Of a stretch of DNA of 44,662 bases, positions 12,664-20,297 are shown piece by piece (positions within the stretch are counted from its first letter, which is position 1; each line of letters starts with the position of its first letter). Under the pieces are notes generated by a model, which was given only the letters and a program-made list of their open reading frames with translations, had not been told where the DNA came from and made no database searches. The stretch comes from an uncultured Clostridia bacterium (GTDB lineage Bacteria; Bacillota; Clostridia; Oscillospirales; Oscillospiraceae): contig CAMOXK010000010.1 of the NCBI GenBank assembly GCA_946629065.1, positions 1 through 44,662 on the forward strand, in the 5' to 3' direction. The position numbers were made by a program, and so were the translations under genes.

Positions 12664-13644
12664 ATGGCAAACAATGTCCGTCCCGAAACCATGGAGCGCA
12701 TCACCACGCCCGAGCTGGCCCGGGCTTTCATCGCTGAGCAGCTGGACGCGCTGCGTGCCCAGATTGGGGATAAGAAGGTCCTGCTGGCCCTGTCCGGCGG
12801 CGTGGACTCTTCCGTGGTCGCGGCTCTGCTCATCAAGGCTGTGGGCAAGCAGCTCACCTGCGTGCATGTGAACCACGGTCTCCTGCGCAAGGGCGAGCCC
12901 GAGCAGGTCATCCGGGTCTTCCGGGATGAAATGGACGCAAACCTGGTCTATGTGGACGCGGTGGATCGTTTCCTGGATAAGCTGGCCGGAGTCTCCGAGC
13001 CCGAGCGCAAGCGCAAGATCATCGGCGCCGAGTTCATCAGGGTCTTTGAAGAGGAAGCCCGCAAGTTGGACGGCATTGAGTTTTTGGCCCAGGGCACCAT
13101 TTACCCCGATATTCTGGAGAGCGGCCCGGTGAAGGCCCACCACAACGTGGGCGGTCTGCCGGAGGATCTGCAGTTTGAGCTGGTCGAGCCGCTGAAGTTC
13201 CTGTATAAGGACGAGGTCCGCGTGGTGGGCCACGAGCTGGGCCTGCCCGACAACATGGTGTACCGCCAGCCCTTCCCCGGCCCCGGCCTGGGCGTGCGCT
13301 GCGTGGGCGCCATCACCCGCGACCGGCTGGAGGCCGTGCGGGAGTCCGACGCCATCCTCCGCGAGGAGTTTGCCAAAAACGGCCTGGAGGGCAAGGTGTG
13401 GCAGTACTTCACCATCGTGCCCGACTTCAAGTCCACCGGCATCAAGGACGGTCTGCGCACCTACGACTGGCCCGTGGTCATCCGTGCCGTCAACACCCGG
13501 GACGCTGTCACCGCCACGGTGGAGGACGTGCCCTTCGCCCTGCTGCAGCACATCACCGCTCGCATCACCAGCGAGGTCAAGGGCGTGAACCGGGTCCTCT
13601 TTGACCTGACCCCCAAGCCCTCCGGCACCATCGAGTGGGAATAA
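12664..13644 (+). CDS. guaA: GMP synthase, ATP-pyrophosphatase subunit (no glutaminase domain)
   Basis: The 326-residue protein corresponds to the C-terminal two thirds of GuaA, which converts XMP to GMP with ATP and ammonia. The P-loop LALSGGVDSS (residues 41-50) marks the ATP-pyrophosphatase domain. FLAQGTIYPDILES, the VYRQPFPGPGLGVRC stretch and the C-terminal PSGTIEWE are characteristic of the synthetase and dimerisation domains. The N-terminal class I glutaminase domain (about 190 residues in usual bacterial GuaA) is absent: AGGGGGTAAACGCT precedes ATG 12664, and only a promoter and a repeat lie upstream. A separate glutaminase subunit or ammonia dependence is implied. Its last 14 bases form the left boundary repeat of the genomic island. 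Confidence 0.93.
   Translation: MANNVRPETMERITTPELARAFIAEQLDALRAQIGDKKVLLALSGGVDSSVVAALLIKAVGKQLTCVHVNHGLLRKGEPEQVIRVFRDEMDANLVYVDAVDRFLDKLAGVSEPERKRKIIGAEFIRVFEEEARKLDGIEFLAQGTIYPDILESGPVKAHHNVGGLPEDLQFELVEPLKFLYKDEVRVVGHELGLPDNMVYRQPFPGPGLGVRCVGAITRDRLEAVRESDAILREEFAKNGLEGKVWQYFTIVPDFKSTGIKDGLRTYDWPVVIRAVNTRDAVTATVEDVPFALLQHITARITSEVKGVNRVLFDLTPKPSGTIEWE
13631..13644 (+). other. attachment-site core, left (attL-like)
   Basis: TCGAGTGGGAATAA encodes the end of GuaA including its stop codon. It is identical to 20284-20297, so integration leaves guaA intact. Confidence 0.75.
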
Positions 13645-14148
13645 TACACTTCAGTATTTTGAAAAGTGCTGGATGGTCAGTAATGGCTTGAAACAGCAGG
13701 CATTCTGCGGAATGCCTGCTGTTTCTTGTTATCAACACTGATAACGTTTTGACAGTGAAAAAAACATGAAAAGAACCAAGTGAAATCTCCTGATACGATA
13801 TGGCAGAGATAATGATTATCAACCCTGCAATTGTTTTTTTCTTTGCGCATTGATTTTCGCAGAGACATCATATATAATTGTTTTGCTAATTTGCGAAAGG
13901 AGCGTAACCCAGTGATTAACAGAGAGGTTATCCGCTGATTAACTGAATAAAGGCGCAGAGCATGATTGAGGGGTATACCCCTCTGGATTAGTGCGCCATT
14001 TTTGAGGTACTTTCGGATAGTGGGAACCGCAGGACGCAGCCACGACGGGAGCTGCTTCGCTGCGGTATTTTTGCGCCAATTTTCAGGTACCGACGCCATA
14101 TAGGAACGATTCCATATCAAATCTTATGTTCAAGGAGAAAAACCAATT
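13645..14148. other. gene-free left end of the island
   Basis: No convincing gene. It holds a hairpin GCAGGCATTC / GAATGCCTGC near 13696-13720, the 18-bp palindrome at 13728-13745, a palindrome GAGGGGTATACCCCTC at about 13968-13983, and two direct repeats GCGCCATTTTTGAGGTAC / GCGCCAATTTTCAGGTAC near 13992 and 14074. A basic minus-strand frame (13677-14120) has no start signal or recognisable domain. Confidence 0.6.
13728..13745. repeat. 18-bp palindrome near the left island end
   Basis: GTTATCAACACTGATAAC has 7-bp arms around a 4-bp centre. It matches 20156-20173 at 17 of 18 positions and lies 83 bp inside the left boundary. It could be a recombinase or excisionase arm site. Confidence 0.65.
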
Positions 14149-14607
14149 ATGATAATCAAACTGGAACCGATCAATGAGAATAACAGAGATGCTGTTTTGG
14201 CACTTTCCGTGCGGGAGGATCAGCCCTTCGTCGCCCCGAACGATTATTCATTAAGCGAGGCAGATGAGGCCAATGCCAAGGCGCCCGGCACGGCGAGACC
14301 GTTTGCGATCTGTGCTGGGGAAAAGATTGTCGGCTTCTGTATGCTCGCTCTGGACCCCGAGGATGAGAATCCCGTCGACAGATACTGTCTCTGGCGTTTT
14401 ATGATTGACAAAAACGAACAGGGCAAGGGCTACGGTCAGGCGGCACTTCATGAGATCATCCGGTATTTCAAAGAGAACGGCGTGGACACGGTCTATCTGT
14501 CTACTGCGCCTGCGAATGCGCGCGGACTGCACGTGTACCATAAGGCCGGCTTTAAGGAAACAGGAGAGATAGAAGACGGAGAAGCTATTTTTGTTTTAAA
14601 ACTCTAA
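14149..14607 (+). CDS. GNAT acetyltransferase 1 (island cassette 1)
   Basis: The 152-residue protein has the complete GNAT fold pattern: a beta4 strand with LWRFMIDKNEQGKGYGQAAL, in which QGKGYG is the acetyl-CoA pyrophosphate loop, then VYLSTAPANARGLHVYHKAGFKETGEIEDGE. This resembles diamine/spermidine acetyltransferases of the BltD type, but the acceptor is not predictable. ATG 14149 follows AAGGAGAAAAACCAATT. It is the first gene of the island series and is closest to GNAT 3 (15522), with shared WRFMIDK and FxETGEI segments. Confidence 0.88.
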   Translation: MIIKLEPINENNRDAVLALSVREDQPFVAPNDYSLSEADEANAKAPGTARPFAICAGEKIVGFCMLALDPEDENPVDRYCLWRFMIDKNEQGKGYGQAALHEIIRYFKENGVDTVYLSTAPANARGLHVYHKAGFKETGEIEDGEAIFVLKL

Positions 14608-14622
14608 ATTCCGGCTTGCCGG

Positions 14623-14795
14623 GACAATGAAATCGATCCGGGCGTCCTGACGCAATCGGTCAACGGCATATTCCTGACGCCGAGGGTCGTGTGGGCAGCA
14701 TGAATATGTGCCATTTTATTCACGCTGTTGTCCCAAGGCATGTGGAGACGGTAGTATTAGTGACAAAGAAATAAACAAATCGAGATTTACGGAGG
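14623..14795 (+). repeat. conserved intergenic island element, copy R1
   Basis: It starts soon after the stop of GNAT 1 and ends at the GGAGG of GNAT 2. Landmarks shared with R3 and R6: GACAATGAAAT, GGTCAACGGCATATTC, a hairpin GCATGAATA / TATTCACGC, and CCCAAGGCATGTGGAGAC. The hairpin differs from R3 by a G-C to A-C or G-U-type change, consistent with a conserved structure. Confidence 0.75.
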
Positions 14796-14804
14796 ACAAT
14801 AATA

Positions 14805-15329
14805 GTGATAAAGCTTGAAACCGAGAGACTGATACTTCGCAACTACACGATGGACGATGTTCCCGCGGTGCATGAATACGTTTCGAGCGAGGAAGTATCG
14901 CGGTATGAGGATTTCTGGCCTCTAACGGTCGAAGAAGTTGCGGAAGGGCTTTCCGAATGGAAAGATATGGACAACCGCATGGCGGTCGTACTGAAGCAGA
15001 CCGGCGAACTGATCGGAAGCGTCGGATACTGGGATGATGAGGAAGACGAAAACGGAGAAACGGAATATTCCATCGATTTCGACTTCAACCCGAGATTCTG
15101 GCACAGGGGATACGCCTTCGAGGCGGCAAAAGAGGTCGTGCGACATCTCACGGAAGACCTGCACGTAAAAGAGATCTGGGGGGATTGCGACGAGCGAAAC
15201 ACCGCGTCGTCAAAGCTCCTTGAACGGCTGGGCTTCCAACTTGTCGAAACGGTGGACGACGCGTATAAAGAAGATGCGGATGGGAATCCCATAATGATCA
15301 GATCCAGAGTATATAAATTGACCGCATGA
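14805..15329 (+). CDS. GNAT acetyltransferase 2 (RimJ/RimL type, cassette 2)
   Basis: The 174-residue protein opens IKLETERLILRNYTMDD, the hallmark of RimJ/RimL-like GNATs, with FNPRFWHRGYAFEAAKEVVRH as the acetyl-CoA loop and WGDCDERNTASSKLLERLGF near the C-terminus. These enzymes acetylate N-termini of ribosomal proteins, small amines or antibiotics; which applies here is unknown. It starts with GTG at 14805, 9 bp after GGAGG. It belongs to a different GNAT branch from its neighbours, so the array is not simply a tandem duplication of one gene. Confidence 0.88.
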   Translation: MIKLETERLILRNYTMDDVPAVHEYVSSEEVSRYEDFWPLTVEEVAEGLSEWKDMDNRMAVVLKQTGELIGSVGYWDDEEDENGETEYSIDFDFNPRFWHRGYAFEAAKEVVRHLTEDLHVKEIWGDCDERNTASSKLLERLGFQLVETVDDAYKEDADGNPIMIRSRVYKLTA

Positions 15330-15404
15330 ATCCCGGTCTGTCGATATTCAACTTACTGTCTCGACCCTGACCGATACCGGGGAATTGCCCATTCCTTCAT
15401 TGGG

Positions 15405-15513
15405 ATGAGCCAGTGGGGCGAATACAAGTCTTAGTATTTGACCTGCGGCTCCAAGGCATGTGGAGTGCGAGACATTGATGACAAGGAAATAAACAAATCG
15501 TAATTTACGGAGG
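15405..15513 (+). repeat. conserved intergenic island element, copy R2 (diverged)
   Basis: The right half matches R1 closely (CCAAGGCATGTGGAG, then ATTGATGACAAGGAAATAAAC and AAATCGTAATTTACGGAGG). In the left half only the paired hairpin position is kept (GGCGAATAC / GTATTTGACC) and the sequence differs. Confidence 0.65.
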
Positions 15514-15521
15514 TCAGCATT

Positions 15522-16001
15522 ATGATACATCTTGAAAAGCTTACCTATGAGAACTTTGACGACGTCTTTGAACTCAAGGTAAAAAAGGTTCAATACCCCT
15601 TTGTGGCGAGCAACTGTTACAGCATTGCCGAAGCGTATGTTACCATGATGTGCGGCGGGCATGTATTTCCTTTCGCAATCTACAATGACAAACGGCTTGT
15701 CGGCTTCATCCAGATAGGCTACGGTGAGAACGCGGATCAGGACGGAGTGAGCGTCGAAAAAGACAATTACGAGATCTGGCGTTTTATGATCGACAAGCGT
15801 TATCAAGGCCGTGGTTACGGCAGAGAAGCGCTGAAGCTTGCACTCGATTTCATCAGGACGTGGCCCTGCGGCAAGGCGGAGTTCTGCTGGATCTCCTACG
15901 AACCCGAGAACGAGATAGCAAGAAAGTTGTACGCCTCGTTCGGTTTTGAGGAGACGGGCGAGATGGACGGCGATGAGATCGTCGCAGTGCTGAAGCTGTG
16001 A
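15522..16001 (+). CDS. GNAT acetyltransferase 3 (cassette 3)
   Basis: The 159-residue protein has the GNAT acetyl-CoA loop in WRFMIDKRYQGRGYGREAL and the C-terminal ARKLYASFGFEETGEMDGDE motif. It is a clear relative of GNAT 1 and of spermidine/diamine acetyltransferases (BltD-like); the acceptor is unknown. ATG 15522 is preceded by ACGGAGGTCAGCATT, in which the GGAGG is the last part of intergenic element R2. Element R3 begins about 28 bp after its stop. Confidence 0.88.
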   Translation: MIHLEKLTYENFDDVFELKVKKVQYPFVASNCYSIAEAYVTMMCGGHVFPFAIYNDKRLVGFIQIGYGENADQDGVSVEKDNYEIWRFMIDKRYQGRGYGREALKLALDFIRTWPCGKAEFCWISYEPENEIARKLYASFGFEETGEMDGDEIVAVLKL

Positions 16002-16028
16002 ACAATAACACAAATTCAAATTTGGCGA

Positions 16029-16190
16029 GACAATGAAATAAATCCGGGTATCCTGACTCAACTGGTCAACGGTATATTCTTTACGCCGAGAGTCGTGACT
16101 ACAGCGTGAATATGTGCCTTTTTATTCACGCTGTTGTCCCAAGGCATGTGGAGACAGTAGTATTGATGACGAAGGAATAGACTAACCGGA
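16029..16190 (+). repeat. conserved intergenic island element, copy R3
   Basis: This is the best-preserved copy. The hairpin ACAGCGTGAATA / TATTCACGCTGT has 12 perfect base pairs, extended by GAC/GTC across one mismatch (about 16097-16138), followed by CCCAAGGCATGTGGAGAC. It lies between GNAT 3 and the M3 peptidase gene. Confidence 0.75.
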
Positions 16191-16231
16191 ATTTGATGAA
16201 AGCTTTATACAGAAACCGGAGGAGCATGACA

Positions 16232-17914
16232 ATGAAGTTTTCAGAAATACAATATCATCGCCCCGATCCCGAAAGGTTGAAGGCCGAATTAGGCGAACTG
16301 ATCAGGCAATTGAAAAACGCAGGCAATTATGAGGAAGCCCGCCTGATCTTTCTCGCGTGGGAAGAAAAACAAAAGATCACCAAAACGATGTCCATTGTGT
16401 CGTTCATACGCCGCAACATGGATGAGGACGATGAGTTTTACAAGGAAGAGCGCGCTTTCTGGCGTAGCTTCGATGCGGAACTTGAGGGGTACAGCAAAGC
16501 CTGGGCAGAGGCGATGCTCGATTCTCCGTTCCGGGCAGAATTTGCAGCCGAGTACGGCGATATGATGCTTCTGAACGCCGAATTCGACAGGAAAACCAAG
16601 TCTCCGGAGATCGTTTCTGATCTGCAGAGGGAGGCAGAACTGGTCGAGAAATACGAAGAGTTCGAAGTTGAGGAGTTCTGCTTTGAGGGCAAAACGGTCG
16701 GTTACGATGAGATCGGTGAGTTGGAGCAAGACGAAAACGGCGCACGTCGTTTCGCCGCATACAAATCCGAAGGCGCAGGCTGGCGTGAGATTGCGGAATC
16801 CCTCGACAACGTTTTCGGAGAACTCGTGCGTCTGCGCGAGAGCATCGGTAAGAAAATGGGTTTCGACGGATACATCCACTATGAATACTGCAGGCTGAGA
16901 CGCACCTTTACAAAGGATGACGTGGCGAGGTTTCGTGAGCGGGTGGTGAAATACGTAGTGCCCATTGCTGACGCCATCAAGCGTCAGCAAGCCAGGCGGA
17001 TTGGCAGCACCTACCCCATGCCCTATTCGGACAACGAATTCTTTTTTAAAAGCGGCAATCCGCATCCCGCAGGGGATGATGACTATCTGGTAAGTGAAGG
17101 GCAGAAGCTCTTTGATTCGCTTTCCCCGGAGGCAGGCGAATTCTTTCGTCACATGACAAAAAACGAGATGATGTACCTTCACGCAGGCGGAGGTGTCGAT
17201 CTGTATCTGCCGCTTGCCGAATCGCCGTTTATCATGGTCGATCTGAACGGCTCGGGTGATTCCGTGCGTTCTTTCATGCACGAGGCAGGGCATACCTTCG
17301 CCTACTGGATGAACAGAAAGCGCGTCCCGGTGGATTACGTTCAGCCAAGCGAGGACATTACAGAGCTGCATTCCATGTGCATGGAGCTGATTGCGCTACA
17401 GAACGCGGCAGGGTTTTTCGGTGAAGACGCACAGAAATATACATACTCCCTCATCGGAGAAAGCATAGCATTTATCACCTACGGTACGATGATCGATCAT
17501 TTTGAGCATTCCGTATTTGAGAATCCGGAGTGGACGTTTGCAGAGCGCCGCGCAGAATGGAACCGGCTTGAGGCTATCTACGAGCCGTGGATCAAATTCG
17601 ACGGCGAGATCCCATACTACGGTGAGGGTATGCTTTGGCAGCAGCAGGGGCATATCATCGAGGAACCTTTCATGTATATCGACTATGTGCTGACAGGCGT
17701 GGTTGGACTGGAAGTCTGGGCGATCATGCAAAACGATCCCAAGGAAGCATGGGATCTTTATATGGCACTCGTTTGCCAGGGCGGCACCCGTCCTTTCGTC
17801 GAGCTGATCAGGAACGCCGGCTTACATTCACCGTTCGACGAGGATTGTTTGAAGCGAGTAAGTGAGGCGGCAAAAAGGTGGCTTGACAGCTTTGATATCA
17901 CAGGGATCGAATGA
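16232..17914 (+). CDS. M3 family oligoendopeptidase (cassette 4)
   Basis: The 560-residue protein is a zinc metallopeptidase of the PepF/M3 type, which cleaves short peptides in the cytosol. The zinc motif is SFMHEAGHTFAYW (His350, Glu351, His354), and ITELHSMCMELI supplies the downstream glutamate ligand. Length and the all-helical character fit the TIGR02289-like subgroup. I place the start at ATG 16232, 9 bp after CCGGAGG, rather than upstream ATGs near 16193 or 16226 that lack spacing. It is the only long gene in the island and is unrelated to the GNATs, yet follows the same intergenic repeat. Confidence 0.9.
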   Translation: MKFSEIQYHRPDPERLKAELGELIRQLKNAGNYEEARLIFLAWEEKQKITKTMSIVSFIRRNMDEDDEFYKEERAFWRSFDAELEGYSKAWAEAMLDSPFRAEFAAEYGDMMLLNAEFDRKTKSPEIVSDLQREAELVEKYEEFEVEEFCFEGKTVGYDEIGELEQDENGARRFAAYKSEGAGWREIAESLDNVFGELVRLRESIGKKMGFDGYIHYEYCRLRRTFTKDDVARFRERVVKYVVPIADAIKRQQARRIGSTYPMPYSDNEFFFKSGNPHPAGDDDYLVSEGQKLFDSLSPEAGEFFRHMTKNEMMYLHAGGGVDLYLPLAESPFIMVDLNGSGDSVRSFMHEAGHTFAYWMNRKRVPVDYVQPSEDITELHSMCMELIALQNAAGFFGEDAQKYTYSLIGESIAFITYGTMIDHFEHSVFENPEWTFAERRAEWNRLEAIYEPWIKFDGEIPYYGEGMLWQQQGHIIEEPFMYIDYVLTGVVGLEVWAIMQNDPKEAWDLYMALVCQGGTRPFVELIRNAGLHSPFDEDCLKRVSEAAKRWLDSFDITGIE

Positions 17915-18068
17915 GGCGCAGCTTGCCGAGATGGTAGGGACTTCCGCTCCGTACATCAGCAGGCTCATAAACAAGAAGGACGGCATCATTAACAAGGTAT
18001 TCGTGGAGATGCTTGAAAAGCTGGGCTACGATATCCAGATCACGTATGTGAAGAAAGAAACAGACTGA
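17898..18068 (+). pseudogene. truncated XRE-type HTH protein
   Basis: The frame AQLAEMVGTSAPYISRLINKKDGIINKVFVEMLEKLGYDIQITYVKK resembles the C-terminal part of antitoxin-like XRE regulators, beginning in the middle of the HTH. The first helix and a start with a ribosome binding site are missing; the frame merges into the M3 gene end (stop 17914), overlapping it. It is probably the remnant of a gene whose 5' end was lost when the M3 gene was joined here. Confidence 0.6.
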
Positions 18069-18096
18069 CAAATCGAGATTTGAGGGGGAAATGAAA

Positions 18097-18969
18097 ATGC
18101 AATACGAAATCATACCCTGTGTAGATGGCGATGCGGAATACATCGAAGAGCAGGCAGATCAGGCGATCAACGCCATCGTACCGCCGGAGGAAGGTGCACA
18201 GGAAGAAGTATTCGTTTATCAAGTCACAGACACGGAAGGACGCTTTCTGGGCGGGTGTATTCTGGTTACAGAGGAATGGAAGACCGCTGTGATTTATGAC
18301 CTGTGGGTGGAAGAAGCCTATCGTCATCAGGGAATCGCCTCCGCGCTGATCCGGGAATCCGAGCGGAAAGCCCGGGAAATGGGATGCTATCTTATGCTGA
18401 TCGGTACCTTCGATTTTCAGGCGAAGCCCCTCTATGACAAGCATGGCTATGCGCTGATCGAAACCATGACGGATTGTCCGAAGGGGCATGAACACTATTT
18501 CCTGCAGAAGCGGCTTGACCTTTCTTGCGGGGAAGCCGCCCCTCTGGATCTCGGCCGTTACAAGATTACGCTTGCAGGAGAAGAACTCGCAGAAAAGCTC
18601 TCTGCCAGGCTGAATCGACATGACGAAGCCTGTGTCCCGCGCAAACACGCTTACATCTCCATTTGCAAAAAGGCAATCGACAAGAATGGGAAACTCATCG
18701 CCGGGATCGTAGGAGGCGTGGATGGATGGGATAATCCGGATATCGATGCGCTTTGGGTGGACGAAGCCTGCCGCAGGCAAGGGATCGCTTCCGCGCTTCT
18801 CCATGCGTTCGAGCGGGAGGCAAAGGAAAACGGTGCCTACCGGCTGGGTGTGGAACCATTTGATTGGAACGTAGGTTTTTTCAGGAAGAACGGTTACGAA
18901 AACGTCACCGGCGTGCTGGAGGATTATCCGAAGGGACATACCATGTACTGCATGGAGAAGCCTCTTTGA
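18097..18969 (+). CDS. double-domain GNAT acetyltransferase (cassette 5)
   Basis: The 290-residue protein contains two GNAT domains in tandem. The first has LWVEEAYRHQGIASALIRESERKA followed by FDFQAKPLYDKHGYALIETMTDCPKGHEHYF. The second has LWVDEACRRQGIASALLHAFEREA followed by FDWNVGFFRKNGYENVTGVLEDYPKGHTMY. Both halves keep the RxQGIAS acetyl-CoA loop and a terminal PKGH motif. ATG 18097 is 8 bp after GAGGGGG; an ATG two codons upstream (18091) is only 2 bp from it. It is paralogous to the next gene but richer in G+C. Acceptor unknown. Confidence 0.85.
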   Translation: MQYEIIPCVDGDAEYIEEQADQAINAIVPPEEGAQEEVFVYQVTDTEGRFLGGCILVTEEWKTAVIYDLWVEEAYRHQGIASALIRESERKAREMGCYLMLIGTFDFQAKPLYDKHGYALIETMTDCPKGHEHYFLQKRLDLSCGEAAPLDLGRYKITLAGEELAEKLSARLNRHDEACVPRKHAYISICKKAIDKNGKLIAGIVGGVDGWDNPDIDALWVDEACRRQGIASALLHAFEREAKENGAYRLGVEPFDWNVGFFRKNGYENVTGVLEDYPKGHTMYCMEKPL

Positions 18970-19053
18970 CTGGCCCACTGATAAATTCCGGTTTACAGAG
19001 GCAGGATAATCATAAACGATCCCGACAAAACGGGATTTAAGGAGGAAATGAAA

Positions 19054-19935
19054 TTGAAATACGAAATGAAACCGCTGACCGATGAGGAAGCGGAAGCAAT
19101 CGGCAAAAAAATAAGCGAATACGCCGATTCCATGGCGCCCAATGAGCCTCACACCGAGGAGGAACAGCTTGTTTTTAAAATTGAAAACGAAGAAGGCCGG
19201 ATGATCGCCGGCTGTGTGCTGAACATTCATTTGTGGGGACGCGCCGTGCTTGCCCAACTCTGGGCGGATGAACAGTACCGCGGTCAGGGACTCGGCTCGA
19301 CGCTCATTCACACAGCGCAAAAAGCCGCGAGGGAGAAGGGCTGTTATTACCTGTGCTTAGGTACGCTTGACTTTATGGCGAGACCGCTTTACGAAAAGCA
19401 CGGCTTTAAAGTGTTTACGGAGAATATTGATTTGCCGAAAGGACATACGGGGTGGTCTATGTCAAAACGGCTTGATAAAGAGATTCCCGACTACATACCG
19501 ACAAACAACAGCGCCGCACAGCGTTTTAAGGTCCTGCACGGCACAAAGGAAGACGCAAAAATCATTGATGAGGGGCTTGACCGTTACTGTGATCGTTTTA
19601 TTGTTACGCCCGAGGATAACGATATTCCTTTGGGCAGAAAGCTCGTTGACAAAGGCGGAAAAATGATCGCCGCCGTGCTTGCCGAGCTTGACGCCGATGA
19701 GAGTACGGATATCAACGGCGTATGGGTCGAAGAACCGTACAGAAAACAGGGCTTAGGCTCCTATCTTCTTGGTAAAGTTGAAAAAGAGGCGAAGGACAAA
19801 GGTACATATCTTTTTATCGGGAATGCGTGCGACTGGAATATCGATTTTTTCAGAAAAAACGGCTATACCGTCAGAGGCGAGCTTGAGGATTACCCGAAAG
19901 GTCACACGGCATACGAGATTGAAAAACGAATCTGA
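19054..19935 (+). CDS. double-domain GNAT acetyltransferase (cassette 6)
   Basis: The 293-residue tandem GNAT is paralogous to the gene at 18097. Domain 1 has LWADEQYRGQGLGSTLIHTAQKAA and FMARPLYEKHGFKVFTENIDLPKGH; domain 2 has VWVEEPYRKQGLGSYLLGKVEKEA and CDWNIDFFRKNGYTVRGELEDYPKGH. I prefer TTG 19054, 8 bp after AAGGAGG; ATG 19048 is just 2 bp from it, matching the layout of the sister gene. Its lower G+C than the sister gene suggests separate histories, not a recent duplication in place. Confidence 0.85.
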   Translation: MKYEMKPLTDEEAEAIGKKISEYADSMAPNEPHTEEEQLVFKIENEEGRMIAGCVLNIHLWGRAVLAQLWADEQYRGQGLGSTLIHTAQKAAREKGCYYLCLGTLDFMARPLYEKHGFKVFTENIDLPKGHTGWSMSKRLDKEIPDYIPTNNSAAQRFKVLHGTKEDAKIIDEGLDRYCDRFIVTPEDNDIPLGRKLVDKGGKMIAAVLAELDADESTDINGVWVEEPYRKQGLGSYLLGKVEKEAKDKGTYLFIGNACDWNIDFFRKNGYTVRGELEDYPKGHTAYEIEKRI

Positions 19936-19973
19936 CGAAAATGCCGCTGCCCGATAGATTCGTGTTATTGTGA

Positions 19974-20100
19974 ACAGTGAAATCGATCCGAGTGTTCTGA
20001 CCCAACTGGTCAACGGCATATTCTTGACGTCGATAGTCGTGGCAACAGCGTAAATATGTGCCTTTTTATTCACGCTACCCACCCAAGGCATCTTGAAATT
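19974..20100 (+). repeat. conserved intergenic island element, copy R6 (terminal)
   Basis: It has the same left half and hairpin as R1 and R3 (GGTCAACGGCATATTC, AGCGTAAATA / TATTCACGCT with one mismatch, CCCAAGGCAT), then diverges. It follows the last cassette gene with no gene after it, as a terminal 3' site would in a cassette array. Confidence 0.7.
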
Positions 20101-20155
20101 GTCCTCTGTTCCGGTATAATAACAGCACTATTATCCATAGCAATTCCACTCCACT

Positions 20156-20173
20156 GTTATCAACGCTGATAAC
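20156..20173. repeat. 18-bp palindrome near the right island end
   Basis: GTTATCAACGCTGATAAC, 17 of 18 identical to 13728-13745 and 110 bp inside the right boundary. A further GATAAC lies at 20177-20182. Confidence 0.65.
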
Positions 20174-20283
20174 AAAATGATAACGGGAGGGGTGATAGGC
20201 TGGATAATATGGACAGATCAAATAATCAAAGGAACTACGAACAGGTCGAACAATAATTCCTAAACGGAATCAGTTAAGTCCTG

Positions 20284-20297
20284 TCGAGTGGGAATAA
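20284..20297 (+). other. attachment-site core, right (attR-like)
   Basis: Exact copy of the 3' end of guaA, TCGAGTGGGAATAA, not preceded by guaA sequence here. It marks the right boundary of the island. Confidence 0.75.

Follow-up and report, generated by a model that had tools for sequence, protein, structure and literature searches.

Small mobile gene cassettes behind rlmD in gut Clostridia end in a palindromic site that carries a copy of the rlmD 3' end

Why should the same intergenic element of about 100 bp recur between largely unrelated genes in the genome of an uncultured Clostridia bacterium of the family Oscillospiraceae (contig CAMOXK010000010.1, assembly GCA_946629065.1)? The stretch analyzed here, called the window, comprises 44,662 nt, and a preliminary description of it proposed that the element, which stands behind several acetyltransferase (GNAT) genes and a peptidase gene, is either part of a new cassette system or a leader RNA common to the GNAT genes. 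We conclude that small mobile gene cassettes have the repeat element as their attachment site on the right, and that such cassettes are found behind rlmD (rumA) in Clostridia of the gut, in many cases that of ruminants. From the comparison of sequences, the mobility of the cassettes is well supported. Individual genomes and loci are referred to below by G and L numbers where they need to be told apart.

The right part of the site encodes HVETVVLMT, the C-terminus of RlmD/RumA, and is a copy of the rlmD 3' end. The remainder is an imperfect palindrome, which runs into a copy of the rlmD core CAYGTNGA. Two rlmD genes were tested, and both exceeded the TIGR00479 cut-off of 183.55, with 375 and 368 bits. 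In many of the 20 regions fetched, the site lies 0.6-1.9 kb beyond the end of rlmD; base-shuffled sequence gave 0 matches. All 29 cassette units that directly follow rlmD open with an in-frame RlmD tail and a stop, 9-21 residues long counted from the Glu, and an RlmD-like tail is readable to the right of 71 of the 101 sites; in the +1 frame the count is 0 of 101. The sequence after HVE is highly variable across 90 regions from rlmD ends of the genus (our script found the core in 87), and the rlmD end is thus an integration hotspot. Strong site matches were present in four of these 90 regions and weak ones in a few more, which is a lower bound since many of the regions are short. Most insertions at the rlmD ends of the genus appear to be of kinds other than the palindrome type. 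Among the same rlmD 3' ends (L171-L260) several long RlmD tails are held in common, for example one ending in SKGEVDSKKIRVEFSLEDMDM. By eye, some right arms (L037, L209, L050, L046) open exactly at the GA of the core with a perfect or near-perfect palindrome, such as GAATCAGTT..AACTGATTC or GAGACAGTCG..CGACTGTCTC, and palindromic repeats of the GAATTGCC type come next in L050/L004. A second arm type, CAGTGGGTCGAATA..TATTTGACCTGCTG followed by CTCC, has the length and core of the main type and was seen in L033, L062, L073, L077, L060 and at window position 15463.

A blastn search with the element found it in 16 of 101 genomes of the genus, the window's own included. An exact site pattern, which fixed positions -25 to +1 with the GA included, retrieved 70 stretches (loci) among GTDB species genomes; these come from Clostridia and families within it, with two from Erysipelotrichaceae or Solobacterium, and many are from ruminants according to the record titles. 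A covariance model was built from 20 sites, the three full window copies among them. It found sites in 19 of 400 genomes (own included) and 14 of 106 genera at the family level, and in three of 391 genomes at the class level, namely the window's own and two of a single genus from a different family. The site pattern occurred 0 times in viral contigs, and the site DNA gave no match to plasmids and phages. A pattern for the variant site gave 0 hits in 400 family genomes, a result that says little as the pattern demanded GARAC after the core and the window's own variant site does not have it. A literature search, which covered mainly titles and the openings of abstracts, with bioRxiv and most subscription journals outside its scope, returned no description of such cassettes at rlmD.

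To delimit the cassettes, a unit was defined as a GA-to-GA stretch of less than 3.2 kb that ends in a site. There are 65 such units, 58 of them distinct in sequence, with a median length of 721 bp. The left neighbor of the 58 is rlmD in 29 cases, another site in 26 and the gene of a large serine recombinase (LSR) in three. One same-strand open reading frame (ORF) of at least 80 aa is found in 48 units, two in eight and three in two; every unit of up to 1100 bp (44 of 44) carries one. The longest ORF points in the direction of rlmD in 56 of 58 units, and one of the two exceptions is the unit of GNAT gene 3 in the window, where the longer frame is antisense. Whole units recur in different surroundings. 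A 1081-bp unit is present in two metagenome-assembled genomes (MAGs) at 97.9% identity over 1081 of 1081 bp, preceded by a cassette in L099 and by an LSR gene in L118, with different flanks on both sides. A GNAT unit of about 673 bp occurs in five genomes (L041, L074, L080, L088, L106) at 89-96% identity, twice after rlmD, twice after other cassettes and once after an LSR gene, and it crosses genera: by matching coordinates, L074 is from genome G315, which is not of the genus of G022 (L041). One GNAT cassette was also seen with two different ends: in site orientation, L062:6373 ends in the palindromic site and L088:6373 lacks the palindrome, with 96.7% identity over the common 574 bp.

The point of exchange can be placed within two bases. 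When 14 junctions were compared, GA was the only sequence common to all; GA stands at the start of 57 of 58 units and in 99 of 101 sites. The unit-start GA and its being the sole bases common to the junctions fit the 2-bp overlap of serine recombinases. Conservation falls after the GA, a drop to be read with caution because positions -25 to +1 were set by the search pattern in the 70 loci; many pattern-free blastn alignments likewise stop a few bases to the right of the GA. The rlmD of G049 matches that of G004 (87%) as far as CATGTCGAA and not past it. At the level of sequence, these comparisons demonstrate the mobility of the units and their junctions.

Many arrays are located at rlmD; the window array itself lies away from it, behind guaA, and its features are as follows (all on the + strand).

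12664..13644 (+), guaA, C-terminal part of GMP synthase (PF00958, E 1e-34); the island begins at its 3' end
13631..13644 (+), TCGAGTGGGAATAA at the guaA end (repeat family D10); the 14 bases occur again at 20284-20297
14149..14607 (+), GNAT gene 1 (PF00583, E 1.7e-16), upstream of site 1, with no core of rlmD on its left side
14659..14760 (+), site 1, made up of the palindromic arm and the rlmD core; crossover at the GA of 14745; ETVVLVTKK and stop encoded to the right
14745..15462 (+), cassette with GNAT gene 2 (14805-15329)
15380..15478 (+), site 2, with a variant arm (type C); crossover at the GA of 15463; ECETLMTRK and stop encoded to the right
15463..16150 (+), cassette with GNAT gene 3 (15522-16001)
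16065..16166 (+), site 3, the top-scoring copy; crossover at the GA of 16151; ETVVLMTKE and stop encoded to the right
16193..17914 (+), M3-family peptidase gene, ORF listed from TTG (PF01432, E 7.3e-9; TIGR02289 390 bits, below the cut-off of 442)
18091..18969 (+), double-GNAT gene (PF00583, two stretches)
19048..19935 (+), double-GNAT gene (PF00583, two stretches)
20009..20110 (+), site 4, array end; GA at 20095; at its right island DNA in common with G033

The three full copies noticed in the preliminary description are recovered both as repeat family D1 (at 14606, at 16012 with 82% and at 19956 with 65%) and by the covariance model at 14659-14760 (E 1.4e-27), 16065-16166 (E 7.8e-29) and 20009-20110 (E 7.2e-24). 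What it took for a half copy at 15405 is indeed a recurrence, better described as the variant site at 15380-15478 (22.7 bits, E 0.002) with the same core. The short traces it placed at 18065 and 18985 exist as weaker repeats (18067 against 19024, 50 nt, 84%; 18982 against 14605, 22 nt, 77%), and the covariance model found no site there at E 0.01. The last copy does end the array, with nothing of the array beyond it. Sites 1 to 3 still encode RlmD tails, which are latent at this location. Since TCGAGTGGGAATAA of the guaA end returns at 20284-20297, the array is probably contained in an element that integrated at guaA, and the two TCGAGTGGGAATAA copies are likely its left and right ends. The island of a relative (G033) shares 13843-14753 (93%) and 20084-20295 (92%) with the window; between these flanks it has about 1 kb, by eye a double-GNAT gene, where the window has 5.3 kb. 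This different content between common flanks, together with the unrelated genes, the exact unit boundaries and the recurrence of one unit in differing neighborhoods, supports the proposal of cassettes. A 20-nt inverted repeat, TTGTTATCAACACTGATAAC, at 13726-13745 and 20156-20175 (85%) flanks the array and perhaps represents arm sites of the guaA element. Behind the M3 peptidase, 17914-18069 looks by eye like the remnant of a small helix-turn-helix-type gene, 69 nt of which are 96% identical to DNA directly behind a site in G035 (L033). GNAT gene 1 (MIIKLEPIN...) again precedes a site that is not at rlmD in L072, L086, L103, L105 and L032, three of which have LytTR/DUF3021-like genes nearby (named by eye); these loci may represent a second home locus.

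Five of the six genes in the window array encode GNATs or double GNATs, the sixth being the M3 peptidase, and some of them have a common leader before the start codon. These two features speak for a leader RNA or regulatory repeat shared by tandemly duplicated GNAT genes. The cargo of the cassettes at large is diverse. After exclusion of window, antisense and near-identical proteins, 52 proteins from the 58 units matched 34 Pfam families at 1e-5. Among the 25 families shown, Acetyltransf_1 accounts for 10 of the 52 proteins, DUF2716 for three, and DUF4279, methyltransferase and DMP19 for two each; single cases include chloramphenicol phosphotransferase-like, EamA, trypsin-like and 23S_rRNA_IVP proteins. 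The element is therefore not confined to GNAT paralogues. The right part of the site derives from rlmD, the element gave no Rfam match at the gathering score, and its covariation did not rise above shuffles (see below). The cargo and the link to rlmD already contradict the leader RNA, and we regard it as highly improbable.

Is the palindrome a folded structure? A hairpin at 16099-16134 had been pointed out in the window and is present; only two of the seven sites folded clearly beat their shuffles (z of -2.85 for site 3 and -2.23 for site 2, 0.07 for site 1, and -1.14 to 0.60 for the four others). The statement that it is kept by compensating changes was not confirmed: none of the nine consensus pairs of the 20 sites showed a both-sided change. 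The dyad itself is real, with 72% of the cells paired across 66 non-redundant sites, versus 34-50% when the arms are slid by 1-3 positions. Pairing is not above that of shuffles in the same 66 sites (equally good in 63 of 1000 shuffles, whose mean is 71.4%), and seven of 14 pairs have some both-sided change, without excess over the slid controls (6-9). A by-eye impression of pairwise compensation between arm types A and C was not borne out by counting: left and right arms taken from different types pair almost as well, at 68% and 71%, as those within types, at 72% and 77%. Since the dyad is present without its pairing being kept above shuffles, it may serve to bind a protein and not to fold as a strand. 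The lack of covariation, which the preliminary description would have counted against its proposal, concerns the folded site and not the mobility of the cassettes.

Which enzyme could move the cassettes? In L041, L118 and L059 an LSR gene ends inside the core and a cassette comes next; the LSRs of L041 and L059 have Resolvase, Recombinase and zinc-ribbon domains. Among eight LSR loci, the gene end lies inside the same core in six and not in one, and one was missed by the script. The one LSR element that could be reconstructed, shortened and decayed at an rlmD of G022, yields an attP with GTTTGGACA 14 nt on either side of the GA; GTTTGGACA is a perfect 9-bp inverted repeat with a chance of 5.5e-5 in random sequence. 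By eye, a relaxase-like ORF was seen in the L041 LSR element only, and a small serine recombinase (219 aa) is encoded near the site in L067. Neither a serine integrase nor a relaxase or conjugation gene occurs in the cassettes among the 25 of 34 Pfam families shown. The integron integrase model TIGR02249 was over its cut-off in 0 of 16 genomes, which are 67-96% complete; weaker tyrosine-recombinase matches occur in 16 of 16 genomes and in 14 of 14 controls alike. A tyrosine-recombinase motif was found near sites in only two of 91 stretches (L086, L096), in a scan that is not complete, for it missed the truncated LSR of L118. From these sequence relations, the moving enzyme is likely an LSR that targets rumA. 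Known elements of two groups resemble this arrangement. The integrative and conjugative elements (ICEs) and integrative and mobilizable elements (IMEs) at rumA of Streptococcus use the same target gene and exchange gene 3' ends (PMC4701971, PMC5704250), and their attR lies within the gene of the serine integrase (PMC4701971), an arrangement also present in L041, L059 and L118; they are large and bring their own integrase (PMC4701971, PMC5704250), whereas the units described here are mostly one-gene tandem units without a recombinase and with a common palindromic arm. The SCC/ECC cassette chromosomes at rlmH likewise target an RNA-methyltransferase gene at its 3' end, have att sites with inverted repeats or dyad symmetry and are moved by Ccr large serine recombinases (PMC6222049). 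The nearest NCBIfam model to the L041 LSR is CcrB (206.6 bits, cut-off 900), with CcrC and CcrA matches also below their cut-offs. SCC/ECC differ in their target, rlmH and not rlmD (TIGR00479), in having the recombinase inside the unit, and in size, with an ECC described as 32 kb (PMC6222049) compared to units of about 0.7 kb here.

We consider it probable that, as a whole, the data are explained by rlmD-site cassettes that are exchanged at GA by a rumA LSR acting in trans. Such a cassette opens with the 3' half of the rlmD attachment site, which amounts to a short replacement C-terminus for RlmD, followed usually by one same-strand gene and then by the imperfect palindrome leading into CAYGTNGA. 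Exchange at GA would link the cassette start to rlmD, to the 3' end of an LSR gene or to the end of another cassette, and the cassette end to the former downstream DNA; with GA exchange at both ends, cassettes would stack in tandem. Excision, circles and the order of insertion are steps that we infer, and the rumA-targeting LSR would most likely act from integrated mobilizable elements. Several observations weigh against this explanation. The conservation from -25 to +1 is inflated by the search pattern, some units have no palindrome or contain two or more genes, and the comparisons, all of them between MAGs, showed neither excision nor circles nor any gain or loss among strains. The palindromic arm has no GTTTGGACA at the position of the LSR attP, nor any match to the attP motif; no palindromic-arm unit was seen with an LSR of its own; and seven of 102 genus genomes have the L041-type LSR and 16 of 101 have the site, with a single genome (G022) in common.

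The attC core of integrons is GTTRRRY, and the core common to the present sites, CAYGTNGA (-6 to +1, partly set by the search pattern), does not match it. An integron-type process could be imagined, in which folded single strands of the palindrome are the substrate of an unrecognized tyrosine recombinase and the rlmD end plays the part of attI. An ORF with a 3' recombination site, tandem arrays, diverse cargo and units common to several species are features of integrons and of clusters of attC sites lacking integron-integrases (CALINs) as described in PMC8618304; by eye, an inverted copy of the core stands at the left outer end of some sites, and of the 113 model matches in the 70 loci about 20, counted by eye, are weak ones that a site makes with its own reverse strand. 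The integrase result (0 of 16 genomes over the cut-off), the rarity of the tyrosine-recombinase motif (two of 91 stretches), covariation no better than in shuffles, a core anchored in rlmD and a GA crossover that is the one of the rumA LSR elements all speak against such a process, which we hold to be doubtful. A different account is plain accretion of cis-mobilizable elements (CIMEs), in which rumA-targeting IMEs that have lost their integration and transfer genes are occasionally moved by a related integrase. CIMEs, too, are recombinase-free units bounded by att sites and stacked at one target, and their accretion is described for ICEs and IMEs (PMC5704250); the shortened LSR element at one G022 rlmD and the many other tails on rlmD ends of the genus would fit as well. 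Decay would not predict that unrelated genes in 14 of 106 genera are followed by one common palindromic arm of about 100 bp, nor that small, mostly one-gene units recur nearly identical and whole in differing contexts; the left arm of the LSR elements differs and no intermediates were seen. We think this account unlikely.

At least one defining feature was absent for each of integron, rumA element and SCC; the anatomy of a CIME, with att sites at both ends and no integration or transfer genes, was present as judged on the 25 of 34 Pfam families shown. By their sequence, the cassettes would function like those of an integron, occupy the position of a rumA element and resemble SCC in their likely enzyme. 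One might tentatively go further and see in them a second, independently evolved integron, in which an LSR platform, with the end of the LSR gene or of rlmD as landing site, captures recombinase-free cassettes by attC-like palindromes and a 2-bp crossover and renews the RlmD C-terminus with each insertion; we offer this as a speculative possibility. Tandem gene cassettes are usually equated with integrons and a tyrosine recombinase, and here serine recombination is apparently at work. The sites constitute a new family of recombination sites and offer a testable route for the trade of single genes among gut Clostridia; with every insertion RlmD, a conserved enzyme of ribosome modification, receives a new end.

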